From an uncultured Nitrospirota bacterium (GTDB lineage: Bacteria; Nitrospirota; Nitrospiria; Nitrospirales; UBA8639): a stretch of 64,000 bases of DNA. The notes below the pieces were generated by a model. The model did no database searches and was not told where the DNA came from. It worked only from the letters and a program-made list of their open reading frames with translations. Position 1 is the stretch's first letter. Each line of letters starts with the position of its first letter. Both the position numbers and the translations under genes were made by a program. Shown piece by piece: positions 15,049 to 17,038 of this stretch. Location of the stretch: the NCBI GenBank assembly GCA_937139405.1, contig CAKZPV010000047.1, positions 62,001-126,000 on the forward strand, given 5' to 3'.

Positions 15049-15204
15049 GTTGAGTTCAGGCTGAACTTACAAGCTTTCCCTGTTGCCTTTTTACAACCAT
15101 CGTAGCATTCCAGCAATAATCCTTAGGTAGATTTTATAGTTCCATCATTAAGATAACATTAAAATAACATTATTTTTTAATAACTTAGATCAACTGCTAT
15201 TAAC

Positions 15205-15220
15205 TGGCATATATTTAGCA
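15205..15220 (+). promoter_or_regulatory. Sigma-54-like promoter for the porin unit
   Basis: TGGCATATATTTAGCA has GG and GC separated by exactly 10 nt, the -24/-12 spacing of sigma-54 promoters, with one mismatch in each half from the TGGCAC/TTGCA consensus. The predicted start would be near 15231, directly before the structured leader. No enhancer sites were identified. Confidence 0.4.
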
Positions 15221-15231
15221 TTGTTTTTACA

Positions 15232-15276
15232 TACGGCAAACTCCTAAACACAAAGTGGGTCAGCCGTAAGGGGAGT
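15232..15276 (+). ncRNA. Candidate pseudoknot in the porin 5' leader
   Basis: TACGGC (15232-15237) pairs with GCCGTA (15263-15268). Inside that loop ACTCC (15240-15244) pairs with GGAGT (15272-15276), which lies outside the first stem. This is the topology of an H-type pseudoknot. A mini-hairpin CAC-AAA-GTG sits at 15249-15257. A further imperfect hairpin, CCGTGTC/GACGCGG, follows at about 15284-15303. It could be a regulatory leader of the porin mRNA. It does not match any riboswitch core that I know. Confidence 0.4.
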
Positions 15277-15415
15277 GTAAAAACCGTGTCGTTTGTGACG
15301 CGGGCTATTCAAAATAATAAGGAAGCGGGCACGAGACACCATCGGTAAGGGAAGGAATTCAGAGGAATTGATGGGACTCGAGTCCACAAAGGTTTTCACC
15401 AACAGGAGGAGAGCA

Positions 15416-16927
15416 ATGAGGACTTTTTACAAAACCTTTACGAGGTTGACCACAGCGGCACTTCTAGTGGCCATGTCGGCAGCGCCAGGGTTTGCAGCAA
15501 AGACGACCCCGGCGACAAACAAAAACACGAATGTGCCAGCCGTGCCACGGGCCATTCCTGATTTGGTCCCTTATCACAAATTTGATCCACCGGCAGGGGC
15601 CGTTTTTGATGCTAGCAAGTTGACTGTATCAGGGGATATGCGGATCCGTCCGGAATTCCGATCCAATGGCGGCTTTGGGCTGGGTGGAAGTGCACCTAGA
15701 CAGGCAGATGGATCATATAGATTTAACAATGCCGGGAATCAATCGGATTTTTTCACGCAACAACTTATCCGGTTGGGTTTCCATTATGCCATCTCTCCAG
15801 ATGTGGCATTTTTTGTTCAACCGCAAGTGTCAAACAACTGGGGAACGTCGGGCCCAAATGGGACGGGTAGCGATCTCTTTCTCCGTCAAGGTTTCATGAT
15901 AGTCAGGAATTTCTTGGCTCCTAATTTGACCCTGAAAGCTGGACGCCAGTTAGTGGTTTGGGGAAATCACCGAATTTTTGGACATTTTGACTGGAATAAT
16001 GTGGGATTTGCCTTTGATGGGGTAACCCTCCGGTATAACCATAGCAAGGTTCCAGTAGAGGTAGGGTGGCTGAGAGTTGATGAGGGTGACTGTAACGACA
16101 GTGCTGGTGGTTGCGGAAATGCCACAAGATCAGCGGATACCGGGGATGCCGATATTTGGTTCGCGCGCTTACCAATGAAGTTTGGGGGCGTTGCTGTTGA
16201 ACCTGCCTGGATCTTTGAAGATAATGGGATTGGCGGAAATCCTCCAGGTGGACAACCAGGCAACCAAAGTCGACATACGGTCGGTGGCCGGGTTGCCACG
16301 AAAAAAGGGATTGTTGACGTCACGGGGGAAGGTTACTGGCAGTTTGGTTCATTGGGGACCACGAGCCCAACCAATGGAAACCGGCAAGAACGTATTAATG
16401 CCATTGCCCTGCATTTAGATGCGGGTGTGACCTTGCCTGTACCTATGCAACCCCGAATCGGTGCCGAAGTAAACTATGCCTCTGGTGATGAAAATTGTAA
16501 TGCAATGGATGGCAATCGCTGCGGAAATACCTTTAGCCAGTTGTTCCCAACGAACCATATCCACTTTGGATATATGGACAGGATGTCCTGGCAGAATATG
16601 TTCACCTACGGCGGGAATTTGCAGATGCGCCCAACGGCCAATAGCCACTTTGAAATTGGTGGGCATATCATGCGTCTAGCCAATCAGAATGACAATTGGT
16701 ATGGAGCCAACCAAGCAGTGTTTAAAGCCACTCCACAGGGAAATACTGAGAAATCGCTTGGTGGTGAGATCGATATCACCTACACCTTGTTCTTCATTGG
16801 CAACAAAGTTGGTTGGCAGGTTGGTTATGGCCATTTCTTTGCTGGCGATTATCTAACGAAGAATGATACAGGTAGTGCTGCTAACGACCAGGACTGGGGC
16901 TACACCCAACTCTGGGTCAACTTCTAA
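15416..16927 (+). CDS. Outer-membrane beta-barrel porin
   Basis: 503 aa from ATG 15416, chosen because AGGAGGAGAG lies directly upstream (15404-15413); earlier in-frame codons lack a ribosome site. MRTFYKTFTRLTTAALLVAMSAAPGFA is a clear signal peptide. The mature part is rich in alternating aromatic/Gly strands (RIRPEFRSNGGFGLGG, LIRLGFHYAISPDVAFFVQPQ, LKAGRQLVVWGNHRIFG) and ends WGYTQLWVNF, with the terminal aromatic residue typical of outer-membrane barrels. It resembles alginate-export-type porins. It likely allows diffusion of small solutes; the substrate is unknown. A long structured leader precedes it and a strong terminator follows. Confidence 0.8.
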   Translation: MRTFYKTFTRLTTAALLVAMSAAPGFAAKTTPATNKNTNVPAVPRAIPDLVPYHKFDPPAGAVFDASKLTVSGDMRIRPEFRSNGGFGLGGSAPRQADGSYRFNNAGNQSDFFTQQLIRLGFHYAISPDVAFFVQPQVSNNWGTSGPNGTGSDLFLRQGFMIVRNFLAPNLTLKAGRQLVVWGNHRIFGHFDWNNVGFAFDGVTLRYNHSKVPVEVGWLRVDEGDCNDSAGGCGNATRSADTGDADIWFARLPMKFGGVAVEPAWIFEDNGIGGNPPGGQPGNQSRHTVGGRVATKKGIVDVTGEGYWQFGSLGTTSPTNGNRQERINAIALHLDAGVTLPVPMQPRIGAEVNYASGDENCNAMDGNRCGNTFSQLFPTNHIHFGYMDRMSWQNMFTYGGNLQMRPTANSHFEIGGHIMRLANQNDNWYGANQAVFKATPQGNTEKSLGGEIDITYTLFFIGNKVGWQVGYGHFFAGDYLTKNDTGSAANDQDWGYTQLWVNF

Positions 16928-16964: not shown

Positions 16965-17000
16965 TATCTAAGGGGACTTCACTCTCCTTCGGATCTTCAA

Positions 17001-17038
17001 CCGCCCCTACTGATATTCTCAGTAGGGGCGGTTTTTTT
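17001..17038 (+). terminator. Strong rho-independent terminator of the porin gene
   Basis: A perfect 13-bp GC-rich stem (17001-17013 with 17019-17031), a 5-nt loop TATTC and a T7 run make an ideal intrinsic terminator. Confidence 0.92.

Follow-up and report, generated by a model that had tools for sequence, protein, structure and literature searches.

Our analysis suggests that an outer-membrane porin gene of a nitrite-oxidiser-like bacterium (Nitrospirales) is transcribed from a sigma-54 promoter, starting at about position 15231, and that its mRNA begins with a cis-acting 185-nt leader which would set translation and show a clade-specific bistability. We regard this as the best explanation of the data and give it about an even chance of being correct. 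Comparison of homologous loci shows conservation of the promoter, of the sites upstream of it, of the leader helices P2 and P3 and of the context in which the ribosome binds. The leader itself is apparently an undescribed conserved RNA element.

All positions refer to the window, i.e., the whole stretch of 64,000 nucleotides that was analysed. It belongs to a 4.46-Mb genome, and the relatives of its porin fall in Nitrospirales bins. Two TatA/B-like genes lie upstream of the porin gene, and a strong intrinsic terminator (15 pairs and a T run) follows it at 16999-17033. Porin orthologues were gathered from genomes of the genus, the family and GTDB. Fifteen of their leaders could be aligned: five in group A (L009-L013, including the window) and ten in group B (L014-L023).

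Promoter and upstream sites

The porin gene and the DNA features that precede its transcript are the following:

15081-15118, + strand: upstream block, a TGTTGCCTTTTTACAAC dyad and then CATCGTAGCATTCCAGCAATA, alignable at 22 porin loci
15167-15187, + strand: A/T-rich block ACATTATTTTTTAATAACTTA, lying between upstream site and promoter, aligned at 22 loci
15205-15220, + strand: sigma-54 promoter TGGCATATATTTAGCA, with GG at -24 and GC at -12; GG-N10-GC in 22 loci
15231, + strand: predicted transcription start A15231, deduced from spacing, 12 nt downstream of C15219 taken as -12
15416-16927, + strand: outer-membrane porin, 503 aa, Pfam Alginate_exp (PF13372)

The promoter site is the single exact match to TGGCAYNNNNNTWGCA in the 64 kb. 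With one mismatch allowed, chance alone is expected to give such sigma-54 sites in a sequence of this length, so that conservation, rather than the match itself, is the evidence for the promoter. In the alignment, the GG and GC elements keep a spacing of exactly 10 nt in front of this porin in several genera; the 22 loci comprise the 15 with alignable leaders and seven more whose leaders no longer align. RpoN is encoded in the same genome (PF04552, E 8.8e-59). The sigma-54 assignment is strong, since promoter and upstream blocks are conserved at the 22 loci, sigma-54 is encoded and the upstream site is unique in each genome, being present once, at the porin, in all four genomes scanned (that of the window, G019, G010 and G008). 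These data bear out the sigma-54-like promoter noticed in a preliminary description of this DNA, in which a start near 15231 was predicted from the -24/-12 spacing. A start at A15231 would yield a leader of 185 nt (15231-15415) whose first stem begins one base later.

The block at 15081-15118 includes the dyad TGTTG-N7-CAAC (15081-15097) together with ATCGTAGCATTC...GCGATA, and is a probable enhancer, i.e., a binding site for an activator. In some relatives the dyad is perfectly palindromic, as in L056 (TGTTGCTAATTAGCAACA). A regulon sharing this site was rejected, as a second good site is absent from the genome. The A/T-rich block may correspond to a bend or to an IHF-like site.

Conserved structure of the leader

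The leader contains the following elements:

15232-15268, + strand: P1, UACGGC (15232-15237) with GCCGUA (15263-15268), predicted 37-nt 5' hairpin, favoured over a pseudoknot
15240-15243 with 15257-15260, + strand: P1b, nested in P1, ACUC with GGGU, possible in 15 of 15 leaders
15240-15276, + strand: second stem of the proposed pseudoknot, ACUCC (15240-15244) with GGAGU (15272-15276), able to form in the window but not conserved
15284-15303, + strand: hairpin P2, CCGUGUC with GACGCGG, 92.5% of cells paired in group A
15320-15328, + strand: motif AGGAAGCGG adjoining P3, its last 8 letters (GGAAGCGG) identical in 15 of 15 leaders
15327-15385, + strand: helix P3, covariation in 15 sequences
15400-15418, + strand: ribosome-binding site and start CAACAGGAGGAGAGCAAUG, nearly invariant in the 15 leaders and also seen in distant porin leaders

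The best supported helix is P3, which was overlooked in the preliminary description. Its arms pair GGGC with GUCC (15327-15330 with 15382-15385), CGAG with CUCG (15332-15335 with 15377-15380) and, further inside, CCAUCGGU with AUUGAUGG (15339-15346 with 15367-15374). Scored on a MAFFT alignment that was not fitted to structure, 90.6% of the cells are paired in the 15 homologues and four pairs have changed on both sides; sliding the partner strand by 1-3 columns reduces pairing to at most 49%. Group B mostly has GGAU/AUCC in place of GGGC/GUCC, plus an opened tandem G-A internal loop. P2 corresponds to a second hairpin that had already been proposed, and proves to be real: two pairs have changed on both sides among the five group A sequences, with slid controls reaching at most 39.5%. 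Compensatory changes beyond controls, the mark of a conserved structured RNA, are thus found in P3 and, more weakly and in five sequences, in P2.

These helices bear directly on the possibility that the DNA alone matters, the sigma-54 promoter being conserved and the leader being a spacer free of constraint whose folds arise by chance. The letters of the leader do diverge fast between clades, and its folding energy is ordinary in several relatives (z near 0); the window (z -3.6), L010 (-3.9) and L014 (-3.0) are more stable than their shuffles. However, the covariation of P3 and P2 lies far above the slid controls, the motif before P3 is conserved, and so is the length of the leader, with 208-226 nt from the -24 element to the ATG in the 15 leaders despite their diverging letters. 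We therefore consider a chance-folding spacer very improbable.

The leader matched no Rfam family, even at E up to 10, and distant porin loci gave no Rfam match either, so that known RNA families and riboswitches were rejected as its identity. The earlier proposal of a promoter that leads directly into a structured porin leader outside these families is in this respect supported by the comparison. A covariance model built on the 3' domain matched strongly once in each of 15 genomes, in each case at the porin leader used in building it, and gave no second copy elsewhere in those genomes. Eleven weak matches elsewhere in the family were checked, nine of which have a conserved ribosome-binding site before a porin-like start. 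Further copies of the leader in the window's genome were rejected, as none scored above chance (L002 at E 0.02).

In other clades (L053-L055, L047, L038, L039 and L062-L071), the 150 nt before the porin ATG harbour their own unrelated, clade-conserved hairpins, which lie before a ACAGGAGGAG ribosome-binding context that is strongly conserved. It seems that the leaders of this porin family are replaced rapidly, whereas structure close to the start persists. The second of two tandem porins in G019 (L043, 1000-1560) has a leader that has diverged but retains a P2-like GGCCGATGCTTAATATGGCC hairpin; inspection by eye revealed neither an upstream activator block nor a clear sigma-54 site at this duplicated porin. 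An in-frame ATG at 15371, 45 nt before the porin start, begins a frame that runs open into the porin in each of the five group A leaders. Its use as the porin start was judged unlikely because the frames of group B are shifted by indels and a strong Shine-Dalgarno sequence precedes the ATG at 15416.

The 5' domain was originally read as a pseudoknot leader made of two mutually entangled stems. The letters for both stems are indeed present in the window and are mildly unusual: among 1000 dinucleotide-shuffled versions of the leader, 22 gave an equally good H-type arrangement. Yet the second stem exhibits zero compensatory changes, and its central pairs are broken in 4/5 and 2/5 of the group A relatives; the two entangled stems are not kept with covariation, and a pseudoknot was rejected as the conserved core. 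The covariation check that had been proposed is thus failed by the pseudoknot and passed by P2 and P3. Homologues favour a nested hairpin that uses this 5' strand. P1b, in which it would pair with the strand immediately preceding GCCG, is possible in all 15 leaders, with 3-8 bp whose letters differ between leaders (ACUC/GGGU, AUCCC/GGGGU, GCUCA/UGAGU, AUCC/GGAU, GUC/GGC and others) and whose pairs change together. These instances are short and were anchored by hand, and by itself P1b fails to reach significance in some sequences. An inverted repeat of UUUUUACA (15224-15231) and UGUAAAAA was rejected as a transcript helix, since its 5' arm lies almost wholly before the predicted start.

A metabolite riboswitch built on this pseudoknot would profit from the rarity of the two-stem arrangement among the shuffles. 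We nevertheless think that there is scarcely any chance of it, given a second stem that is broken in relatives, a 5' domain without an invariant core across the 15 leaders, the lack of an Rfam match and a downstream region that offers only a porin, with no obvious ligand.

Predicted pairing between the leader and the porin codons

When 60 nt of coding sequence were added to the leader for folding, a further helix was predicted, which the preliminary description had likewise overlooked:

15258-15451, + strand: leader-coding helix, predicted, leader with codons 3-12, about 22-23 bp

In the window, 15258-15265 would pair with 15444-15451, 15266-15272 with 15435-15441 and 15276-15283 with 15424-15431; pair probabilities are mostly 0.8-1.0, and lower at the end pairs 15258-15451 and 15283-15424. 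The predicted partner of the group A segment (G)GGUCAGCC-(G)GUAAGGG-GAG-UGUAAAA is ACUUUUUACAAAACCUUUAC..GGUUGACC, and the same helix is predicted in all five members of the group. Their leader-start interaction is beaten by 1, 3, 0, 4 and 2 of 93 control porin-gene windows, respectively. Shuffled leaders did as well in 6 of 400 cases for the window, a moderate significance, with weaker results in the other members; duplex energies from RNAduplex were too loose for good discrimination. Against control windows, the helix is absent or unremarkable in the ten group B leaders, and leader-coding pairing was rejected as a general feature in favour of one confined to group A.

The helix could account for the near-invariance of the leader segment 15257-15283 in group A. 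Compensatory change is limited to one position (G-C, G-U and A-U, with A-C in L013), and is scarce because both strands are conserved. Conservation of codons at the gene start is common for ordinary reasons of initiation. Within the gene, codon identity peaks at the first porin codons for invariant residues (0.834 vs a median of 0.543), which would fit a constraint on the RNA but also ordinary constraints on initiation.

P1 and the leader-coding helix draw on the same strand and are mutually exclusive. As they cannot coexist, we infer a switch model, and the two exclusive pairings suggest a translational switch. An activator bound near 15081-15118 would drive sigma-54 RNA polymerase to transcribe the porin from about 15231, and the leader would then act in cis on translation and probably on message stability too. 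In the clade of the window, the leader may be bistable: with P1 formed and holding GGGUCAGCCG, the start region would stay open, whereas with P1 open, 15258-15283 would pair with codons 3-12 and block loading of the 30S subunit. Candidate signals that could shift this balance are an RNA-binding protein, an sRNA, temperature or coupling to translation. That one clade of Nitrospirales possesses such a bistable sigma-54 porin leader, with a 37-nt hairpin opposed to a 22-23-bp helix and control in two layers, is a tentative proposal which we would put clearly below an even chance. If true, enhancer-driven transcription would be combined with an RNA switch on an outer-membrane channel.

Alternatively, the leader could mainly be a stabiliser of the mRNA and a platform for ribosome loading, like the ompA 5' UTR, without any switch. 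A hairpin near the 5' end would guard against 5'-end-dependent decay by RNase E/G, and a strong Shine-Dalgarno sequence would retain ribosomes; other mRNAs are known to be stabilized by 5' stem-loops and strong Shine-Dalgarno sites (reviewed in PMC7509114). P1 starts one base past the predicted start in group A, the genome encodes an RNase E/G family enzyme, and the AGGAGGAG ribosome-binding site is extremely conserved. However, several group B leaders (L015, L016 and L018) have little 5'-terminal structure, and stabilization alone leaves P3 and the clade-specific leader-coding complementarity unexplained. We consider this alternative unlikely, though a serious one.

Porins are classical targets of sRNAs. 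The leader could accordingly be a landing site for a trans-acting regulator, either such an sRNA (for examples of porin regulation, see PMC1489923) or an RNA-binding protein such as CsrA at GGA motifs. Motifs of this kind flank P3 in all 15 leaders (AGGAAGC ahead of it and, at the ribosome-binding site, ACAGGAGGA), and a csrA gene is present in the genome. Nevertheless, GGA occurs in any Shine-Dalgarno sequence, Hfq was not found in the genome of the window (G000) with the Pfam model PF17209, and the genome yielded no candidate sRNA; its other sequences close to the ribosome-binding context are at chance level. An sRNA complementary to this context, or a second gene sharing it, was rejected; the closest extra match examined (L120) lies inside an open reading frame and has GCATTG at the porin-start position. 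A leader that serves mainly as such a landing site thus seems to us a rather remote prospect.

Relation to known systems

For Nitrospira, our literature searches yielded no paper dealing with a sigma-54 promoter of a porin or with the leader behind it and, to our knowledge, little is known about the control of outer-membrane permeability in these bacteria. A leader without Rfam coverage and with a predicted alternative pairing over the start codon offers a concrete, testable entry point, and the conserved upstream dyad provides a handle on the activator.

The TGGCA-N10-GC core and the distant upstream dyad are reminiscent of NtrC/NifA-type sigma-54 promoters; in contrast to these, the promoter described here feeds a 185-nt structured leader. 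The prediction that one strand either joins a 5' hairpin or covers the start region recalls translational riboswitches and other leaders that pair with coding sequence, although a conserved ligand-binding core is absent here and the pairing is limited to one clade. The 5' UTR of ompA stabilizes its mRNA in enterobacteria and acts as an RNA thermometer in Yersinia pseudotuberculosis (PMC8245352). Like the present element, it is a long structured leader of an outer-membrane protein (an abundant one in the case of ompA) with a strong ribosome-binding site, and control through ribosome access or stability, as we propose here, would be a further analogy. The porin leader differs from it by its sigma-54 promoter and its predicted helix with the coding region; the likeness is functional, and we do not claim any sequence relation. 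We thus file the leader as an uncharacterised cis-acting element of a known kind, the structured porin 5' UTR.
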